A stretch of 42,377 nucleotides of DNA from Candidatus Omnitrophota bacterium. GTDB taxonomy: Bacteria > Omnitrophota > Gorgyraeia > JAFGGP01. The stretch lies in contig JAFGGP010000007.1 of the NCBI GenBank assembly GCA_016930485.1, positions 1-42,377 of the forward strand, read 5' to 3'. This document shows, piece by piece, positions 6,699 through 34,164 of this stretch (position 1 is the stretch's first letter; every line of letters starts with the position of its first letter). The notes beneath the pieces are model-generated. The model ran no database searches. It was given only the letters and a program-made list of their open reading frames with translations, and had not been told where the DNA came from. Both the position numbers and the translations under genes were made by a program.

Positions 6699-7709
6699 AT
6701 GTTTTATTACACTATGAGAACAAAGATCTTAGCACAGGTAATGACTATTTTGGTTATCACGCTTTTCTTATGCAGTAATAATGTCTGGGCGAAACCGGCC
6801 TTGCCTCCCCGCGAAGGAGCAGGCAATCCAAGACAGGCCATGCAAAAGGCGGAAGACGCGGAGAAAAATCACAACCACCAGAAAAAAAATGTGCAAAAAC
6901 TTGAAAACATAGAAAAGTTAAGACAGGAAAGAAGAAAAAAACCCGAACAGCAAACCCCTCCAACAGCAACTCTAGCCGATCCCGCTCAAAAGGTATATAC
7001 CTCTGTAGACACACCCACCACAATCAGACTGGCAATTAAGGTGGAAGGATTGCGTGATATAGGAGGCAGTAATAATAATGTAAGTCCGGAAGAATTCGCG
7101 GCCATGGGGCTGTCACTGGAGTTCAGACGCAACCATACAGGGGCCGCAGTAGATCACTATGAAATCAACAAGCTCGGGGACGTGTACATAATAACGGTAG
7201 AGTATAAATGGACACCGTCAGCAGCAGAGCCGGGCTCTTATTCATTTGACCTGTTATTTCACGATACAGAGACAAGGACTGAGGCTACAAGGATTGACGA
7301 TGTCCTGTATGTAGAAGTATCAAGCATGCCGCATCCGACAGTAACGGTACCAGATCCTCATCAAGAGGTGCGCACCACAGTCGGCGAACCTACCACGATC
7401 AGGCAGGCAATTATGGTAGAAGGATTGCGTGATATAGGAGACGGCAGCATGAATGTCAGCCCTGAGGAATTCGCAGCTCTGGGTCTCACGCTCGATTTCG
7501 AGCGCAACAACACAACTGCCGAAGTAGATCATTATGAGATAATTAAGAGGGGAGAAGGGAGATATCTGATCATCGTAGAATACACATGGACACCTTCAGC
7601 AGCAGAAGTAGGCTACTATTCATTTGATATGACATTCCGCGACCATCAAACTATGAACGAGGGTATCAGACTTAATGATGTACTTTATGTTGAAGTAGCC
7701 CCCGAGTAG
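6699..7709 (+). CDS. Secreted protein with two tandem ~118-residue repeats, unknown function
   Basis: This 336-residue protein starts with a signal peptide: basic MRTK, a hydrophobic core, then a likely cleavage after NNVWA near residue 31. Residues 45-85 form a Lys/Glu/Gln-rich, probably helical linker. Two tandem copies of one domain follow (about 93-213 and 216-336). They share VEGLRDIG, NVSPEEFAA.GL, VDHYEI, WTPSAAE and DVLYVEV, and the alternating pattern suggests beta-sandwich domains. I recognise no family. It has its own promoter and is bracketed by hairpin terminators at 6438 and 7752, so it is a monocistronic unit. Its codon use looks more AT-rich than its neighbours, which could reflect transfer or just secreted-protein composition. 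A start at the sixth residue (ATG 6714) is also possible. Confidence 0.75.
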   Translation: MFYYTMRTKILAQVMTILVITLFLCSNNVWAKPALPPREGAGNPRQAMQKAEDAEKNHNHQKKNVQKLENIEKLRQERRKKPEQQTPPTATLADPAQKVYTSVDTPTTIRLAIKVEGLRDIGGSNNNVSPEEFAAMGLSLEFRRNHTGAAVDHYEINKLGDVYIITVEYKWTPSAAEPGSYSFDLLFHDTETRTEATRIDDVLYVEVSSMPHPTVTVPDPHQEVRTTVGEPTTIRQAIMVEGLRDIGDGSMNVSPEEFAALGLTLDFERNNTTAEVDHYEIIKRGEGRYLIIVEYTWTPSAAEVGYYSFDMTFRDHQTMNEGIRLNDVLYVEVAPE

Positions 7710-9278: not shown

Positions 9279-10250
9279 ATGATCGTTCACACCTTCTACG
9301 CATCGAAAGCCCTCAGCAAAACCGGGATTGATATAGCCGATTTTGTGATCAATCCATACCGCGGGTGCACCTACGGGTGCGTCTACTGCTATGCCCAACA
9401 GAACAAAAATATAAAAAAACGAAAGGAAAAATGGGGCAGCTTCGTCGACGTAAAGATCAATATCTTAAATCTCCTGCAGGAAGAACTGCGCAGCGGCATC
9501 ATGGATGTGTCTCAGCGGGTGTTAATAGGGTCCGTTACCGAGCCGTATCAGCCGATAGAGAAGGATATGCGGTTTACGCGGGGCATTCTGCATACATTGA
9601 ACGACTTCGGCAAAAGCGCGGTTATCCTCACGCGTTCGCCCTTAATCTGTGAGGACGCCGAACTGATAATCAAAGGTGGACATACAGTATTTTTCACCCT
9701 GAATACGTTTACCCCGTTAGACCCTGAAAACCCCGCTTTTCAAAACGGGAATGAATGTACTATTGGATTGGAACAAAAACAAAAATCCCGGTCTTCAGGC
9801 AGGTGTCTAACGGGGTTCGCCGGACGCATTAAAGAAGGCCTTGAGCCGGCAGGCCCTTCACTCGATCAGCGGCTTGATGCCGTTGCCCGGCTAGTAGCAA
9901 GCACTGCTGATGTGCGAATACATATCGGTCCGGTTATTCCCGGGCTTACTGATTGCGAGATGCTTTTTGCCAAACTGCCTCCGGGGTGTACAGAGGTGGC
10001 TCTTGAACTCTATAATTTTAAAATGGGTTCGTGGCCGTGTGTGCGTACTGTTCTCGAGCGCGAGGCGCCGCAGGCGGTTAAACTCTGCGAGGAAATCACG
10101 GCTTCACCGGAAATATACGAAGGATATTGCCGGAGATTCCGCGACGAGATTGCGACGATAAACAGAAAATACGGGTATTCGCTCCGTTTTTTCATACCCC
10201 AATTCGACGCCTATTTTGATAATGAAGCGTATCACTATGAGGTATCCTGA
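9279..10250 (+). CDS. SPL/COG1533-type radical SAM protein carrying an in-frame palindromic insert
   Basis: This 323-residue protein has the radical SAM motif C-x3-C-x2-C in NPYRGCTYGCVYCYAQ (about residues 27-42) and continues with SVTEPYQPIEKDMRFTRGIL and the conserved GPVIPGLTD strand-turn. This is the COG1533 family, related to spore photoproduct lyase. Between the FTLNT strand (ends at residue 143) and the usual GRIKEGLEPAGPS.DQRL helix there are about 38 extra residues, coded by the palindromic repeat at 9708-9820. Relatives normally join these two elements directly by a short loop, so the insert should sit on the surface. The frame is intact and the protein ends normally, so it may still be active. 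The next gene starts inside the last codons of this one. Confidence 0.8.
   Translation: MIVHTFYASKALSKTGIDIADFVINPYRGCTYGCVYCYAQQNKNIKKRKEKWGSFVDVKINILNLLQEELRSGIMDVSQRVLIGSVTEPYQPIEKDMRFTRGILHTLNDFGKSAVILTRSPLICEDAELIIKGGHTVFFTLNTFTPLDPENPAFQNGNECTIGLEQKQKSRSSGRCLTGFAGRIKEGLEPAGPSLDQRLDAVARLVASTADVRIHIGPVIPGLTDCEMLFAKLPPGCTEVALELYNFKMGSWPCVRTVLEREAPQAVKLCEEITASPEIYEGYCRRFRDEIATINRKYGYSLRFFIPQFDAYFDNEAYHYEVS
9708..9820 (+). mobile_element. In-frame palindromic coding element, copy 1
   Basis: The 113-bp block is flanked by a perfect 12-bp inverted repeat: ACCCCGTTAGAC (9711-9722) and GTCTAACGGGGT (9805-9816). An inner hairpin is formed by CCCG/CGGG and TTTT/AAAA around 9732-9749. It matches 19598-19710 without gaps at about 92 of 113 positions. 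Its first codon (TTT, 9708) is in frame with the host gene and it encodes FTPLDPENPAFQN...LTGFA. It has no internal gene, so it cannot move by itself. By analogy with Rickettsia palindromic elements it is a non-autonomous repeat tolerated inside proteins. Mobility is inferred from the scattered copies, not observed. Confidence 0.8.
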
Positions 10251-11392: not shown

Positions 11393-11490
11393 AATCCAAA
11401 ACCCAAATGAACTAAAAAAGGTTTTGATTTTTTTGGCATTGGAGATTAAGTGATTCATTTGTCATTTGGAATTTGTCATTTGAAATTAGA
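11363..11490. repeat. Inverted CAAAATCC / CATTTGGAATTTGTCATTTG word repeats
   Basis: The left part (11363-11411) repeats AAAATCC/AAATCCAAA words; the right part (11450-11486) carries the reverse-complement type words CATTTGTCATTTGGAATTTG. The two halves could pair through many registers. The left half reaches into the queF 3' end and the right half ends just before the Shine-Dalgarno of the cupin gene. The same words recur at 13070-13100 and 13255-13292. Confidence 0.65.
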
Positions 11491-12989: not shown

Positions 12990-13296
12990 CCTGCCGAGGA
13001 AAAAGTCGAAGACATTTTCCCGGTGTTTAGGCAAGGGGAAATGACAAATGCCGAATGTCTCTGCCAAAAGGCTGACTAAGCAAATGACAAATGAATCACC
13101 CAATCTTAAATACCAAATTAAAAAAAGCAAGTAACGTTTGTCATTCCCGTGTAAACGGGAATCCAGGAAAAAGTAAAGAGGTGGATTTCTGATCATGGTT
13201 CGACTGCGCTCACCACAGGTATCCGGAATGGCGTGTGTATCTTCTTTTTTTAGGTGATTTGGAATTTGAAGATTCATTTGGATTTTGTCATTAGAC
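12990..13296. repeat. Repeat-filled spacer with several nested inverted repeats
   Basis: No gene is seen in this stretch. It contains AAATGACAAATG words (13041 and 13083), a hairpin ATTCCCGT-gtaa-ACGGGAAT (13142-13161) of the common dispersed ATTCCCG/CGGGAAT type, an inverted copy of the CCTGTGGTGAGCG repeat (13194-13219), and a GGTGATTTGGAATTTG...CATTTGG stretch (13254-13290) that is inverted relative to the words at 13083-13100. The last repeat runs directly into the start codon of the next gene. Confidence 0.65.
13194..13219 (-). repeat. 26-bp dispersed repeat, inverted copy
   Basis: The reverse complement of this 26-base stretch matches 24768-24793 at 24 of 26 positions (core CCTGTGGTGAGCG then GTCGAACCATG). 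Both copies are intergenic and in opposite orientation relative to the flanking + strand genes. Confidence 0.7.
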
Positions 13297-15372: not shown

Positions 15373-16296
15373 ATGAAACACAGAGAAAGAACGGTTGATG
15401 CGTCTTTTGCCCCGGTGGAGAAAAACCGCGTCTGTCTAACGGGGTTTAGCTTAGTCGAGCTTGTGGTAGTGCTCGTCATCCTGAGCCTCCTTAGCTTTGT
15501 CGCCCTTCCCCGTTATGCCCGCCTTAAAGAAACCGCCCGGTTCGCCCTTACCAAACAAACGGTGACCGCGATCCGGAAGGGTATCGTGAGTTATCCGGCC
15601 ACCCCGAAGGCACTTGCCCGGGGGGAGGGATTTCCCAAAAGCCTCGATAGCGCGCCTCTTGGCGAGGCATCCGAGAGTGAAAGTTTTTTTACCGAGGTCC
15701 TTGGATATGACGGCGTCAAAGCCGGGTGGCAAAAGGTGCACCGCCGTCCCGACCGCTATAAACCGCTACTCGGATATCAGGAGGTCTATGAGTACAACCC
15801 GAACGACGGAACCTTCGTACTGGTAAGCAAGGCGGTAGGGGGTGACGAGGCGCCCCAGGAAACCTGGTCTGCCGCGGAGGCCTCGGGCGAAAGTCCGAAA
15901 TGGGAAATATACGGAACGACCCAGTATACCTCGTGGAGCAATCAGTACCTTGATTACGTCATCGACCTTTTAAGAAGCGGTAACTTTGAGATAGCGATTG
16001 CAGCAAAGAACAACGCTGCCGCTCCGGGACAGGGGTCGTTTCAGCCGCGGCAGGGATGGTCGTTGTCAAACGGATATACGCATTTTTTAGTGGATGTGTA
16101 CGTCGACGGCAAGAAGAAAACCCAGGTCAGGATTCCTGCCTCTGATGAGGAGTATAACACAGGGACAAGCGTACTGAGTGATGTTGCAAGCGGCGTGTAT
16201 CTTATCAGACTTGTCTGGAAAAACGATTCGTATCGCCCCTTCTTCCGGGAGGATGCCAATATTGAGGTGCGGGACCTGAGATTAAGCCAGCTCTAG
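15373..16296 (+). CDS. Type IV prepilin-like (pseudopilin) protein with a beta-sandwich C-terminus
   Basis: About 307 residues from ATG 15373. The prepilin peptidase site is clear: LTG|FSLVELVVVLVILSLLSFVALPRY, with Glu five residues after the cleavage and a hydrophobic helix. The C-terminal part (about 180-307) has alternating strands ending in DANIEVRDLRLSQL, resembling a jelly-roll or carbohydrate-binding module. The leader ahead of the cleavage site (SFAPVEKNRVCLTG) seems to be coded by a shortened copy of the palindromic element found at 9708 and 19598. The start is uncertain: ATG 15373 gives a long leader, GTG 15415 (MEKNRVCLTG) a more typical 10-residue leader; neither has a ribosome site. 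No pilus assembly genes are adjacent except the PilZ-PilT ATPase 5 kb on. Confidence 0.78.
   Translation: MKHRERTVDASFAPVEKNRVCLTGFSLVELVVVLVILSLLSFVALPRYARLKETARFALTKQTVTAIRKGIVSYPATPKALARGEGFPKSLDSAPLGEASESESFFTEVLGYDGVKAGWQKVHRRPDRYKPLLGYQEVYEYNPNDGTFVLVSKAVGGDEAPQETWSAAEASGESPKWEIYGTTQYTSWSNQYLDYVIDLLRSGNFEIAIAAKNNAAAPGQGSFQPRQGWSLSNGYTHFLVDVYVDGKKKTQVRIPASDEEYNTGTSVLSDVASGVYLIRLVWKNDSYRPFFREDANIEVRDLRLSQL
15406..15447 (+). repeat. Shortened palindromic coding element at the prepilin leader
   Basis: TTTGCCCCG...GAGAAAAACCGCG (15406-15430) resembles the left end of the full element, and GTCTAACGGGGTTT (15434-15447) matches its right end exactly. The middle of about 70 bases is missing. 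The reading frame is the same as in the full copies (CTA ACG GGG TTT coding LTGF), so the element's end supplies the LTG of the prepilin cleavage site. Confidence 0.6.
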
Positions 16297-17506: not shown

Positions 17507-20083
17507 TTGAATACGGATTATTTCTCCCCAGAAAACGGACCGAGGCCGCGCATTCGATGGCTTAAAGAATCGGGGTATCTGGTGCTCTTTCTGTGCATGA
17601 GCGCCGTTTTATTTTATCGGGTACTGATCCAGGATCAGATGGTTTTAGGCCTGAGATACTCGGATACGATGGAGCTCTTTTTTTATTTTCGCAGTTTCGG
17701 ATTCGGCTGTCTAAAACAGCGCATCCTTCCTCTGTGGAACCCCTATGTTTTTTCAGGCTATCCCTTTCTTGCGAATATGGGGTCGGCCCTTTTTTATCCC
17801 CTGAACGCCCTCTATTTCTTTTTGACGGTCCCGGCCGCCATGAACTGGTCCGTCGCGGTGCATATTACGCTGGCTGCCGTCGCGATGTACTCCTTTCTCA
17901 GGTACATCAAGCTCGCCCCCCTGGCGGCGCTGGGGGGCGGGTGTATCTTTGCCTTTAACGGGACCACCGCTGGGTGGCTCCTGGGCGGGTATCTGACCTG
18001 CGTCAACGGGTTTATCTGGATACCCCTCATCTTTCTCGGTGCCGAGATCGGCATTCGCGATCAGAAGGCTGGCGGCTGGATCGGGGCCGGCTTTGCCCTG
18101 GCCCTGCAGATTCTCGCAGGGTATCCCCAGTTTCCCTGGATCGTGACAGTCGGTATCGGCGTCTACACTATCCTGCGGATAACAATAACCATCCGGCCCG
18201 GCGCACGGTTGCGGCATCTCCGTAAGGCCGTTACCGGCCTCTTTATTATGTGCATTGTCGCCTCAGGCCTTTCCGCTGTCCAGCTTTTGCCGGGGATTGA
18301 ATGTGTCTTTCATTCTGCCCGCGGCGGGATCCGGTTAAAAGAATTTTCACTTATGTATGCCTATCCTCTTGAAAACATGGTCAGTTGGTTTATCCCGCAT
18401 TTTTTCGGTGATGCCTGGAATAAACTGCCATATTGGGGGCGCTGGTTCTTCTGGGAGGCCTTGCCGTTTATCGGGATTACCTCTCTGTGCCTGATAGGGC
18501 TGGGTCGGATGCTGCACCGCCGGCGCCGGGAAACCCTTCTCTTTCTCTGTATGACCGTGATTTTTCTGTTACTCTCTTTTGGCGACCAGATTCCCGTTTT
18601 CCGATGGCTCTACTACGCGATTCCGTTCGCCGGTCTTTTCAGAGGTCCGGGCAGGTTTCTTGTTATAGTCAATTTTGCGGGCGCGTGCCTTGCGGGTTTC
18701 GGCCTCGATGCGCTCATTCGTTATACGGACGACAGTATCCAGGAGGAACGGTTCAGGCGATTTACGTGGGTCCTTGCGATGTTTGCCGCTGCCTGCGCCT
18801 TGTTTTTCTTTCTGTACCTTGGGCCCGCCCGTCTGGCCTCTTCGTGGATTCACTATGTAGCCGGTGCACTGAAGGAGCCCCATCATTTTCTGAGGATGCC
18901 GCCGGAAAGCATGCCGGCATTTCTCGAACAGTCTTTTCTGGTGATGCGTTCTGGTTTTCGGCGGATGCTTTTCTGGCTTACCGCAACGACAGGCGTCCTT
19001 TTCTGTTTTGGCATAAAACCGCTGCGCCATGCCGTCCCGGTTGTATTGTGCCTGCTTGTTATGCTTGAGTTGGGGGTGTTTTTTTACGGGGGTATGGCCG
19101 CATGGAATATAAAGGATATCGAGTGGCCTGAGGAACTCGTGGCATTTTTGAGGAAAGAAACAAAAGGGGGGTACCGCATCAGTTTTTATCCGCACGGCGG
19201 AAGAGGAGGGCTTAACCGGAATATCCTCTACCGGCTTTCCGCCGCCAGCGGATTCGATAGTAATATCCTGAGGCGTTATAATCGGGTTATTGCCCGGAGT
19301 CAGGCATTGCCCGAGAAAGACCGGACGTACTTTACCATGGGACTGTGCCGTTACGGGCGGCTTTTGGACCTTCTGGCGCTGAAGAGCATGGTCTTTTATG
19401 ACGAAGAGGTAACAGGAGAGGGCATTGACAGGACCCCGGTTTTTACAACGGGCGAGTTTGCCGTGTATCGCAATGAGAATGCATTGCCGAGGGTATCGCT
19501 GGCCACCGACGCACTGGTGATGGATTCCGAGGATATCCTGAACTCTCTCACCGACCAGATCGAAGCAAAAACACACAAGGTGCTGTTAGAGACCGCCTTT
19601 ACCCCGCCAGACCCAGAAAACCCCGCTTTTCAAAACGTGGATGAACGCACTGTTCGATCGGAACAAAAAAGAAGACCCCCGCCTTTAGACCGGGGTCTAA
19701 CGGGGTTTGCTGCCGCCGGGACCTCGCACCATGGAGCAGAACCAGATGATAATACGTTAGTTACGGTACTTTCATTTAGCGAGGAGGATCCTAACAGAGT
19801 GGATATGGATCTCGATGTCCGAAGAGAGGGTTTTTTGGTGTTTCGCGATATGTATTATCCAGGCTGGAAGGCCACTGTCGACGGCGCGCCCGTTGAAGTT
19901 CGCCGGGCGGATTATCTCTTTCGAACAATCAGAGTCCCGGCGGGAAGACACAGGGTCATTTTTTTCTACGCACCTCTCTCGGTCAGGATAGGGATGGCTT
20001 TTTCTCTTGGTTCACTCATCTGTCTTTGTCTGTACTGGCTCCGGCTCAGGAGGCATCCTTCTGGAGGAGGACAGATGCTATAG
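17507..20083 (+). CDS. YfhO-like polytopic membrane protein with an in-frame palindromic insert
   Basis: About 858 residues. After a short N-terminus there are some 12-13 hydrophobic segments (the first at about residues 26-45, a final one at about 828-848) and large periplasmic loops, ending in the YfhO signature PGWKATVDGAPV...YLFRTIRVPAGRHRVIFFY (about residues 785-820). YfhO proteins are GT-C-like enzymes needed for adding sugars to cell-wall polymers from lipid-linked donors. Residues 698-735 are coded by the palindromic repeat at 19598-19710; they lie in the loop after VLLETA, before the beta-rich TLVTVLSF domain. No ATG is available upstream; TTG 17507 is the only usual start and has no ribosome site, so the N-terminus is uncertain. 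Confidence 0.82.
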   Translation: MNTDYFSPENGPRPRIRWLKESGYLVLFLCMSAVLFYRVLIQDQMVLGLRYSDTMELFFYFRSFGFGCLKQRILPLWNPYVFSGYPFLANMGSALFYPLNALYFFLTVPAAMNWSVAVHITLAAVAMYSFLRYIKLAPLAALGGGCIFAFNGTTAGWLLGGYLTCVNGFIWIPLIFLGAEIGIRDQKAGGWIGAGFALALQILAGYPQFPWIVTVGIGVYTILRITITIRPGARLRHLRKAVTGLFIMCIVASGLSAVQLLPGIECVFHSARGGIRLKEFSLMYAYPLENMVSWFIPHFFGDAWNKLPYWGRWFFWEALPFIGITSLCLIGLGRMLHRRRRETLLFLCMTVIFLLLSFGDQIPVFRWLYYAIPFAGLFRGPGRFLVIVNFAGACLAGFGLDALIRYTDDSIQEERFRRFTWVLAMFAAACALFFFLYLGPARLASSWIHYVAGALKEPHHFLRMPPESMPAFLEQSFLVMRSGFRRMLFWLTATTGVLFCFGIKPLRHAVPVVLCLLVMLELGVFFYGGMAAWNIKDIEWPEELVAFLRKETKGGYRISFYPHGGRGGLNRNILYRLSAASGFDSNILRRYNRVIARSQALPEKDRTYFTMGLCRYGRLLDLLALKSMVFYDEEVTGEGIDRTPVFTTGEFAVYRNENALPRVSLATDALVMDSEDILNSLTDQIEAKTHKVLLETAFTPPDPENPAFQNVDERTVRSEQKRRPPPLDRGLTGFAAAGTSHHGAEPDDNTLVTVLSFSEEDPNRVDMDLDVRREGFLVFRDMYYPGWKATVDGAPVEVRRADYLFRTIRVPAGRHRVIFFYAPLSVRIGMAFSLGSLICLCLYWLRLRRHPSGGGQML
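19598..19710 (+). mobile_element. In-frame palindromic coding element, copy 2
   Basis: This 113-bp block aligns with 9708-9820 without gaps at about 92 of 113 positions. Its outer arms are ACCCCGCCAGAC (19601-19612) and GTCTAACGGGGT (19695-19706), 10 of 12 paired. It also keeps an inner hairpin AGACCCC (19673-19679) / GGGGTCT (19692-19698) that copy 1 has lost. Codon phase equals copy 1 (TTT at 19598 starts a codon). The encoded 38 residues match copy 1 at 23 positions, including DPENPAFQN and LTGFA. Confidence 0.8.
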
Positions 20084-31931: not shown

Positions 31932-34164
31932 TGCACAGGTAGTGTATCTCTCTCTTTTATTGATGCTGACGGCAGGTGCCTATCCCCCTGTTAACGGGGC
32001 CATTCGGTGGGAGAGTATCGGACCCGGCGGCGGCGGATGGATCGAGTGCCTTGCCGTTGATCCCCGTGACCCCGGGACTGTCTACGCGGGTTCGGATGTG
32101 GGGGGTATTTTTAAGAGCACCGACGGCGGCGCGTCATGGCATGCCTCAAATATCGGTCTTAAAAATGATTTTATCCGCGATATCGTCATAGATCCGGATA
32201 ACCCGGATGTCATATACGCTGCGACCCCGGGGGGTGTTCATAAGAGCGTAGATAGAGGGGAGACATGGACGGTATTGCGCAACGGTTTCCCGCCGGTTGC
32301 GGCCCATGCATTCAGCTCTCCCGTTAATACGATAGCGATCGATCCCCGGAATTCCAGCGTACTCTATGCAGGGGTCGGCAGGCGTGATAAGGAAGGTGCC
32401 GGGACGATCTACAAAAGCACCGACGGAGGCGGACACTGGTGGATAGTGAACGCCGACGGCACAATTCATCCCCGGGCTGTTATTTACTCTATCTGCGTCC
32501 ATCCGGTTGATACCGGCGTTCTGTATGCAGGAACTGACCGGGGGGTGTACCGGAGCAGTGATGGGGGCGTCACCTGGAGCCCGAAGAATAACGGGCTTGC
32601 GCATCAGAATGTGCGCGCAGTCGCCGTAGGCGCCCGCCAGCCGCATACGCTATATCTTGCGCTGGGGGCCCTGCACAGGGAAGGCACCATAAGCGGCGGG
32701 GCGGTATATAGGAGTGATAACGAAGGAGAGGACTGGGAACTCATCAGGGAAGAGAGATTGTATAGTGAGGGCGATATCTCCGGAGACGCCCCGATCGGGG
32801 CATTGAGCCCTGATTATTTTTCAATCGAGGTAAGCCCGGTTGATTCCCGCGTCTGTTTTGCCGGTGATGTTTCTTGGAAGACAGGAGGGCTCTACGTGAG
32901 CCGTGATGCCGGCACCACATGGTCCGGGTTGACCGCCCCCGGACATATACGGGGGTATGGATGGATTACTCAGTGGGGCGTCGGGGTGACCTCTGCGGCG
33001 ATCGCGCCCAGCGACCCGCGGGTAATGTACATCGGGACGAGCGGGCACATCTTCAGGTCAGGAGACGAAGGAAGGACGTGGCGGCAGGTATATTCGGCCC
33101 CGGCCGGCGGCGGCGATGAGGGCAGAAGCGCCTCGCGCGGCCTGGAGACAACGTGTATTCACTCGATAACGTTAGACCCCCGCATACCGGGCACCCTCTA
33201 TGTCGGTTACTTTGATCTGGGGCTTTTAATAAGCCGCGACGGGGGGAGGAGTTTTACAAGGAGCGTTACGGGCATGAGCTACCCAAATAATACCTTTACC
33301 GTTGCGCCCGATCCGGATGATTCCCTGATACTGTATGCCGGGACCGGGGAGTGGTCCCGCAACGAAGGCGCTTTGTGTAAGAGTACCGACGGCGGTGCGT
33401 CGTGGCGGGTTATCGGCACCCCTAAGACCGGTCTCCCGTTGGGGAGGCCGCGGTTTATCTGCGTTGATCCGCAAAGCCCCCGTGAGACGCGGATAGTCTA
33501 TACAGCAATAGATGAGAAGGGCATTTTTAAGAGTATCGACGGAGGGGCGAGCTGGCGGGCGGTTAACAGGGGTCTTTCTTCTCAGGATATCCGCGCTCTC
33601 ATAGTACACCCCTCTAGATCCGATACCCTTTTTACAGCATGCGGGGGCACCGTCGAGGAGGGCGGCGGGCTCTATGTGACACATAACGGGGCGGCCTTGT
33701 GGAAGCGGGTTGCAACCGATGAGGTATTCCCGAATATTCAGACGTTGCTCATAGATCCCCACAACCCCGAGATACTGTATGCGGGTCACCGCACGTATTA
33801 TGACCCGGCCCGCCAGGAATATATTTCCGGAGGGGTATTTCGCGGAACCGATGAGGCACGGAACTGGGTAAAGTTGCTTGATGACACATTTGTCTCGTCA
33901 ATAGCGGTGCATCCGGCCGACCCGAACAGTATCTATGCGGGCTGTCCGGACCATAATTATCACGACTTCAGCAGGGGCACAGGTCTTTATAAAAGCACCG
34001 ACGGAGGCACGCACTGGGCATTGGTGAATGAGGGGTTGTCGGGTCTGCGCGTCAGTTGTGTGAGTATACAGCCCGAAGAGCCTTCTGTTGTCTACTGTGG
34101 CACAGAGGGAAACGGGCTATTTAGAAGCTCCACACAGAACAGTATCCACGAGGAGGAGAGATGA
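31909..34164 (+). CDS. Secreted BNR/Asp-box beta-propeller protein (sortilin/HCF136-like)
   Basis: This 751-residue protein starts with a likely signal peptide (VVYLSLLLMLTAGAYPPVNGA, cleaved near residue 31). The rest is built of repeated blades with the Asp-box pattern S-x-D-x-G-x-x-W; I count about 13, such as STDGGASW, SSDGGVTW, SRDAGTTW and SIDGGASW, each preceded by a P-x-x-P-x-x-[IVL]-YAG strand. Two stacked propellers, or one ten-blade sortilin-type fold, are likely. Such proteins are found among secreted glycoside hydrolases and VPS10-like receptors. No catalytic residues can be assigned. In the middle of a polysaccharide operon it may bind or trim the polymer in the periplasm or outside. 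It shares 23 bases with the glycosyltransferase gene. Confidence 0.82.
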   Translation: MHHPLPLNAQVVYLSLLLMLTAGAYPPVNGAIRWESIGPGGGGWIECLAVDPRDPGTVYAGSDVGGIFKSTDGGASWHASNIGLKNDFIRDIVIDPDNPDVIYAATPGGVHKSVDRGETWTVLRNGFPPVAAHAFSSPVNTIAIDPRNSSVLYAGVGRRDKEGAGTIYKSTDGGGHWWIVNADGTIHPRAVIYSICVHPVDTGVLYAGTDRGVYRSSDGGVTWSPKNNGLAHQNVRAVAVGARQPHTLYLALGALHREGTISGGAVYRSDNEGEDWELIREERLYSEGDISGDAPIGALSPDYFSIEVSPVDSRVCFAGDVSWKTGGLYVSRDAGTTWSGLTAPGHIRGYGWITQWGVGVTSAAIAPSDPRVMYIGTSGHIFRSGDEGRTWRQVYSAPAGGGDEGRSASRGLETTCIHSITLDPRIPGTLYVGYFDLGLLISRDGGRSFTRSVTGMSYPNNTFTVAPDPDDSLILYAGTGEWSRNEGALCKSTDGGASWRVIGTPKTGLPLGRPRFICVDPQSPRETRIVYTAIDEKGIFKSIDGGASWRAVNRGLSSQDIRALIVHPSRSDTLFTACGGTVEEGGGLYVTHNGAALWKRVATDEVFPNIQTLLIDPHNPEILYAGHRTYYDPARQEYISGGVFRGTDEARNWVKLLDDTFVSSIAVHPADPNSIYAGCPDHNYHDFSRGTGLYKSTDGGTHWALVNEGLSGLRVSCVSIQPEEPSVVYCGTEGNGLFRSSTQNSIHEEER

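Follow-up and report, generated by a model that had tools for sequence, protein, structure and literature searches.

Within the window analysed here, a 42,377-nt stretch of contig JAFGGP010000007.1 from a Candidatus Omnitrophota bacterium, two unrelated genes share a palindromic block of DNA, which raises the question of whether the segment belongs to the two proteins or has been inserted into both. A repeat search of the window returns the block as an ungapped 113-nt direct repeat (9708-9820 and 19598-19710; 81% identity), with a perfect 12-nt inverted repeat at the ends of the first copy (9711-9722 and 9805-9816) and an inner pair of arms (18 nt, 78%). Compared with shuffled sequences, hairpin folding on the two strands scores z = -3.2 and -4.6 for copy 1 and z = -1.5 and -2.8 for copy 2. 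The two copies share one open reading phase (FTPLDPENPAFQ...LTGF). The block, its terminal inverted repeat, the inner hairpin, the ~81% second copy at 19598 and the common phase (the FTPL..LTGF frame, open in both) had been described in a sequence-only reading of this DNA, and all are reproduced here. The 38 extra residues claimed in that reading are corrected to 36: counting both 4-bp flanking repeats the element unit is 112 bp, and the net insert is 108 nt, which in copy 1 encodes residues 144-179 of the radical SAM protein (FTPLDPENPAFQNGNECTIGLEQKQKSRSSGRCLTG; Table 1).

Table 1 Coordinates of the element copies, their parts and their host genes in the window
Feature	Position	Strand	Remark
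Radical SAM gene (Rv2578c/PA0069/rSAM_mob_pairB type)	9279..10250	+	Host of copy 1; Pfam/NCBIfam matches
Element copy 1, 112 bp with both 4-bp flanking repeats	9708..9819	+	In frame in radical SAM gene
Left target tetranucleotide TTTA, copy 1	9708..9711	+	Right counterpart (9816-9819) now TTCG
Left 13-bp terminal repeat, copy 1	9712..9724	+	CCCCGTTAGA plus three variable, pairing bases
Right 13-bp terminal repeat, copy 1	9803..9815	+	...TCTAACGGGG
Prepilin-like gene	15373..16296	+	Leader MKHRERTVDAS[FAPVEKNRVCLTG], mature part FSLVELVVVLVIL; host of the short copy
Probable third copy, short and degenerate (TTTGCCCCGGTGGA...TCTAACGGGGTTTA)	15406..15448	+	43 bp, net 39 nt; in prepilin-like leader, directly before FSLVELVV
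YfhO-family membrane protein gene (PF09586)	17507..20083	+	Host of copy 2
Element copy 2	19598..19709	+	In frame in YfhO-family gene, residues 698-733

Elsewhere in the window, one ORF with no Pfam match carries an internal duplication of ~375 bp (6699-7709; 214-nt and 123-nt blocks, 72% and 71%), a large ORF contains repeated 40-nt motifs of the STDGG...W type, typical of a beta-propeller repeat protein (32101-34018), and the two arms of a 46-nt inverted repeat (11423-11468 and 13081-13126; 80% complementary) lie 1.6 kb apart.

Copies in the host genome and insertion into genes

The block is multicopy, as a search of the window's own genome (1.9 Mb in 57 contigs, 89% complete) and of other genomes, suggested in the sequence-only reading, makes plain. 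Approximately 20 clear places in the own genome match the 113-bp block, and at least 16 full-length copies of 108-119 bp, with ends set by fuzzy terminal matching, run from TTTACCCCGTTAGA to TCTAACGGGGTTTA or near variants. The left end, allowing at most one mismatch, occurs 41 times in this genome, versus 0 for a reversed control pattern. A covariance model recovers 52 places at E ≤ 1, a figure that counts some copies on both strands, and its matches include relatives that keep these ends but are shorter (69 bp, 58 bp) or longer (~240 bp).

The ~240-bp version contains an extra block of ~130 bp with a palindrome of its own (GTGCCAACTTGTTGGCAC), and one 127-bp element of the own genome has the same termini around this extra block only (places of both kinds: C25:47407, C25:55770, C44:59558-59796 and C31:49914-50040); the longer versions and the 127-bp element are mosaic or nested mobile elements. 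The 69-bp relatives (C40:8452, C46:7127, C46:19059, C52:7561, C47:813 and C57:5472) have a net length of 65 nt, no multiple of three. Hairpin repeats (CCCCGGCTTGAAAGCTGGGG together with IS200-like hairpins) that partly match the element interior are present in relatives of the same class (G054:C1:1296523 and 984623, G024:C5:247567; loci L034, L036 and L033). The window's genome also carries a c-di-GMP-I-GGC riboswitch near the end of an rRNA operon (L002:2523-2605, minus strand).

Six of the 16 full-length copies lie in frame inside unrelated genes, whose products are the radical SAM protein, the YfhO-family protein, a MurB-type, a VanZ-like and a SpoIID-domain protein, and one unnamed protein. 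The net insert (the element minus one 4-bp repeat) measures 108 or 111 nt in all six, and the net length is a multiple of three in 6/6 in-gene copies versus 0/10 of the other own copies. Radical SAM orthologues from the same class are devoid of the 36 residues, and the alignment becomes gapless after removal of exactly 36 codons; alignment with orthologues lacking the insert had been proposed as the way to define its ends, and it does so. Without the 36 residues the radical SAM protein scores 43.4 against Pfam instead of 33.3, and two matched stretches merge into one, as they also do for four NCBIfam models. For the VanZ-like protein the rise in score is small (45.6 to 47.2).

As an alternative explanation, the segment could be a protein domain of ancestral origin, or the two window genes could have exchanged it by gene conversion; the similar peptide that both window copies encode in the same phase would fit either. 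The sequence-only reading had itself named what would speak for them, namely orthologues that all carry the segment, or a lack of further copies. Neither is the case, and the insert-free orthologues and the abundance of further copies answer both points in favour of insertion. In addition, the hosts are unrelated, many copies are intergenic and no codon-position bias is seen, so we give this alternative practically no credence. The RPE-like palindromic element in frame inside proteins, proposed in that reading, stands.

The further proposal that the preserved peptide reflects selection at the protein level is not borne out. Mismatch rates of the in-gene copies against the consensus are about equal at codon positions 1, 2 and 3 (0.136, 0.153 and 0.108), and 24 of 86 changes are synonymous compared with 23% expected for random changes. 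In the FTPL..LTGF frame the own-family consensus has no stop over its whole length, and a related 118-bp deltaproteobacterial family has stops in this frame and few copies in long open frames. On these comparisons, the shared peptide is explained by common descent and by FTPL..LTGF being the open frame of the subfamily, and selection acts only on the frame, that is, on a length divisible by three and the lack of a stop. The simplest reading is that elements insert without regard to frame and that, within genes, only frame-compatible copies survive. Elements with one open frame and a net length that is a multiple of three are found inside intact genes. Among 119 cross-phylum elements, 40 lie in long open frames, and 39 of these have a net length divisible by three, a proportion that the open-frame criterion itself favours.

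Termini, target and mobilisation

Elements with these ends occur in about a dozen unrelated bacterial phyla. The pattern TTACCCCGTTAGA...TAACGGGGTTTA over 65-125 bp, expected by our estimate less than once by chance, was sought in 84,980 named species genomes and yields at least 116 stretches; the matches listed include Omnitrophota, several Patescibacteria groups, Deltaproteobacteria, Nitrospirae, Nitrospinota, Elusimicrobia, Cloacimonadota, Planctomycetota, KSB1, WOR-3, Armatimonadota and others. The earlier description of an independent family in a candidate-phylum bacterium is therefore too narrow, since the same termini, TTTA/CCCCGTTAGA-NNN...NNN-TCTAACGGGG/TTTA, are common to all these phyla. 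Interiors differ wholly between families. In 14 genomes from the scan, 12 to 138 half-sites each are found versus 0-2 for a reversed control, and within the window's phylum the distribution is patchy, with at least one exact left end in 110 of 384 genomes and up to 54 per genome. The same 112-bp subfamily as in the window is carried by another Omnitrophota MAG (L108). One deltaproteobacterium gives 41 matches with ~40 full copies at 89-100% identity, indicating recent amplification. No element was found in 2.9 million viral contigs and blastn of plasmid and phage records gives no match to the own-family consensus, so no vector is seen there.

The flanks were examined in 96 elements for which the search pattern did not impose them. 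An exact 4-bp direct repeat flanks 52 of the 96, compared with 19% when flanks are shuffled, and there is none at a length of 5 or 6. Of 24 elements without TTTA flanks, 14 show a perfect repeat of another tetranucleotide (CATA, TCAA, TGAA, TCTA, TTAA, TGAG, CGAG, CAAA). As expected of a miniature inverted-repeat transposable element (MITE), the target-site duplication is of fixed length, exactly 4 bp. Among 170 TTTA elements, the base that follows the right TTTA (+5), which the search did not impose, is C in 72%, indicating the target TTTAC; the next base is T in 51%, and nothing is conserved to the left of the left TTTA. Ten own-genome elements within this set do not have the target C.

The hairpin covariation check put forward in the sequence-only reading was carried out across elements, and complementarity is kept. 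In 154 dereplicated elements, stem bases 1-10 are nearly invariant; bases 11, 12 and 13 vary yet pair in 92%, 82% and 77%, values that 500 shuffles never bring above 51%, 58% and 43%. Pairing drops to baseline from base 14, marking the sharp end of a 13-bp stem. Over all elements 18 different triplets are perfectly paired, four of them in one Uhrbacteria genome.

Taken by its sequence features, the element is multicopy, with numbers in the tens in a genome, end-defined and target-duplicating, has been recently amplified in some genomes and has no enzyme gene of its own; it is short and bounded by 13-bp terminal inverted repeats, as MITEs are. It is very probably a non-autonomous palindromic mobile element of MITE or RPE type, mobilised in trans by a recombinase. 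Such a recombinase would cut at the element ends, and insertion at TTTAC with filling of a 4-bp gap would leave the 4-bp repeat. Recognition would be of the two ends together, as one folded stem, rather than of each as a separate double-stranded site; this is suggested because the variable triplets stay internally paired and come in several kinds per genome. A separate transposase for each triplet is possible but strained. Gene-breaking copies would then be lost and frame-compatible copies persist, the latter giving rise, on translation, to longer leaders or to hydrophilic inserts of ~36 residues.

Four observations count against this explanation, the first being that no mobilising enzyme or autonomous copy turned up in the searches described below. 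The left TTTA is intact in 16/16 copies of the own family and the right one is altered in about half, an asymmetric decay that is unexpected for plain duplication. Of the pairs of similar elements, 59 agree in the side that bears TTTA and 10 differ, an orientation bias that a symmetric cut-and-paste transposase would not give. No filled and empty alleles within one species, that is, no polymorphic insertion, were seen.

The constant and the variable flank of the own family, the orientation fixed relative to TTTA in most families and the hairpin anatomy with its covarying stem would all suit a single-strand HUH/Y1 element (RAYT- or IS200/IS605-like), in which a Y1 transposase cuts the folded strand out behind TTTA and reinserts it 3' of another TTTA, so that the flanks are cleavage and target motifs and no duplication arises. 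Two Y1_Tnp genes are present in the own genome. However, in many elements the two flanks vary in concert (CATA/CATA, TCAA/TCAA, TGAA/TGAA, CTTA/CTTA), none of 30 Y1 loci (with flanks of up to 1.5 kb) contains an element end, and three element-rich genomes have no detectable Y1 gene, which makes this alternative improbable.

The exact 4-bp duplication of varying sequence could also be the work of a DDE transposase, the elements being MITEs whose autonomous partner, from an IS family with CCC ends that duplicates 4 bp (IS1380/piggyBac-like), is gone. The piggyBac and IS1380 elements make an AT-rich 4-bp duplication and have ends starting with CCC, features shared with the present elements; the CCCC start of the terminal inverted repeat beside TTTA/TTAA presumably recalls these ends, a lead that we count for the DDE alternative. 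Unlike in piggyBac/IS1380, the target is TTTAC and not TTAA and the hairpin covaries. No IS1380 (PF13701) gene is present in the 89% complete own genome, no element bounded by the inverted repeats and with room for a transposase turned up in the collected loci and 14 genomes, and several internally paired stem types per genome are hard to reconcile with double-stranded end recognition. On balance a DDE-type origin seems unlikely, though it deserves to be kept in view.

Half-site analysis of the collected loci and of 14 genomes, which are incomplete MAGs, reveals no autonomous copy with the same ends among the matches listed, and no mobilising enzyme was found. Candidate autonomous elements of 1.3 and 2.2 kb between facing ends are chance pairs, the 1.3-kb one spanning ribosomal protein genes. 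An integron attC site was rejected by inspection, the order of the core-like sequences GTTAGAC...GTCTAAC being inside-out.

Insertion at prepilin cleavage sites

Codons for F-T-h-h-E, the start of a mature type IV prepilin, directly follow 17 of 170 elements. At background TTTAC sites of these loci the figure is 12 of 2355 (0.5%), so that 0.87 would be expected among the elements (P about 5e-17). Of the 18 cases listed, 16 translate as leader-(FTPLE...LTG)-FTLIEL and two are interrupted by a stop within the element; in the prepilin cases scanned, N_methyl is detected immediately behind the insert. The element ends in GGGG/TTTA, so insertion at G/TTTAC rebuilds G/FT; the leader grows and the mature pilin should stay unchanged.

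Prepilin genes with a whole element in the leader come from several phyla (L245, L249, L256, L052, L062, L066, L070, L107, L114, L120, L121, L126 and L155), and in L256 two neighbouring prepilin paralogues carry the same insert. In L080 and L081 a stop lies inside the element, with a possible new start codon within it.

The window itself probably holds a degenerate element at a prepilin cleavage motif, missed by the sequence-only reading. In the short stretch at 15406-15448 the right end is perfect, the left end agrees at 11 of 14 positions, and the model gives it a weak score (E 0.015 across the loci searched). The N_methyl motif of the host gene's product scores 18.5 bits, just below the cut-off.

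The strong excess at the prepilin cleavage motif might mean that the encoded peptide or the hairpin RNA is selected for a function, such as longer prepilin leaders or mRNA stability, and that the element is kept for it. The same excess is expected, however, if prepilin leaders are the safest site in a gene for an insert that rebuilds G/F, and neither the lack of peptide-level selection in the own family nor the wholly different interiors of the families agrees with this; we consider a selected function quite improbable. The excess needs no more than tolerance at a harmless site, while targeting or function is possible as its source.

As a tentative proposal, which we rate somewhat below an even chance, the elements may form an undescribed cross-phylum class of hairpin mobile element, whose folded, base-paired 13-bp ends would be recognised by a recombinase cutting TTTAC with a 4-bp stagger, and which would dock at the prepilin site as its right end rebuilds that site.

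Relation to known palindromic elements

Nearly half of the Rickettsia palindromic elements (RPE) lie in ORFs, and a 2024 review of prokaryotic MITEs regards RPE as unusual in their frequency of in-frame fusion, a similar process in other prokaryotes being conceivable (PMC10969869). Like the palindromic elements of Rickettsia and Wolbachia, the present elements are palindromic, about 100-150 bp long and without an enzyme, and have inserted repeatedly in frame into unrelated genes, the host protein gaining a segment. Unlike RPE, whose host range is the Rickettsiales, they span many phyla, with candidate phyla dominating, and they differ in having ends (13-14 bp) common across phyla, a 4-bp duplication that is mostly TTTA, the target TTTAC and insertions at prepilin cleavage sites. 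They work like RPE, but are set apart from them by host range and not filed as RPE.

Among the small inverted-repeat elements of enterobacteria (ERIC/RU), Neisseria (Correia/NEMIS) and pneumococci (RUP), some are intragenic and translated, and enterobacterial ERIC-type elements carry TA duplications (PMC2759123). In contrast to the 2-bp TA duplication of ERIC/Correia, the duplication here is exactly 4 bp. REP/BIME sequences share with the present elements a hairpin with a fixed tetranucleotide at its foot and a mostly fixed orientation; unlike in REP/BIME-RAYT, the foot is TTTA with no GTAG/CGTC tag, the direct 4-bp repeats vary together and there is no Y1/RAYT association. No Rfam family covers the element. 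The sequence-only reading knew of no description of such a family, and our literature search, in which coverage of subscription papers and preprints is thin, likewise found none of these termini or peptides.

To our knowledge, in-frame protein-coding palindromes have so far been regarded as peculiar to Rickettsia and Wolbachia. The elements described here show that in-frame insertion of palindromes occurs across many, mostly uncultured phyla and with a clear anatomy, making testable the old question of how proteins come to incorporate mobile DNA. A clean route is offered by the prepilin cases, in which the processing site is re-created and the mature protein should stay untouched. The family also points to a mobilising enzyme that distant bacteria have in common, and it means that inserts of this kind can be present in the annotated proteins and prepilin leaders of such MAGs.
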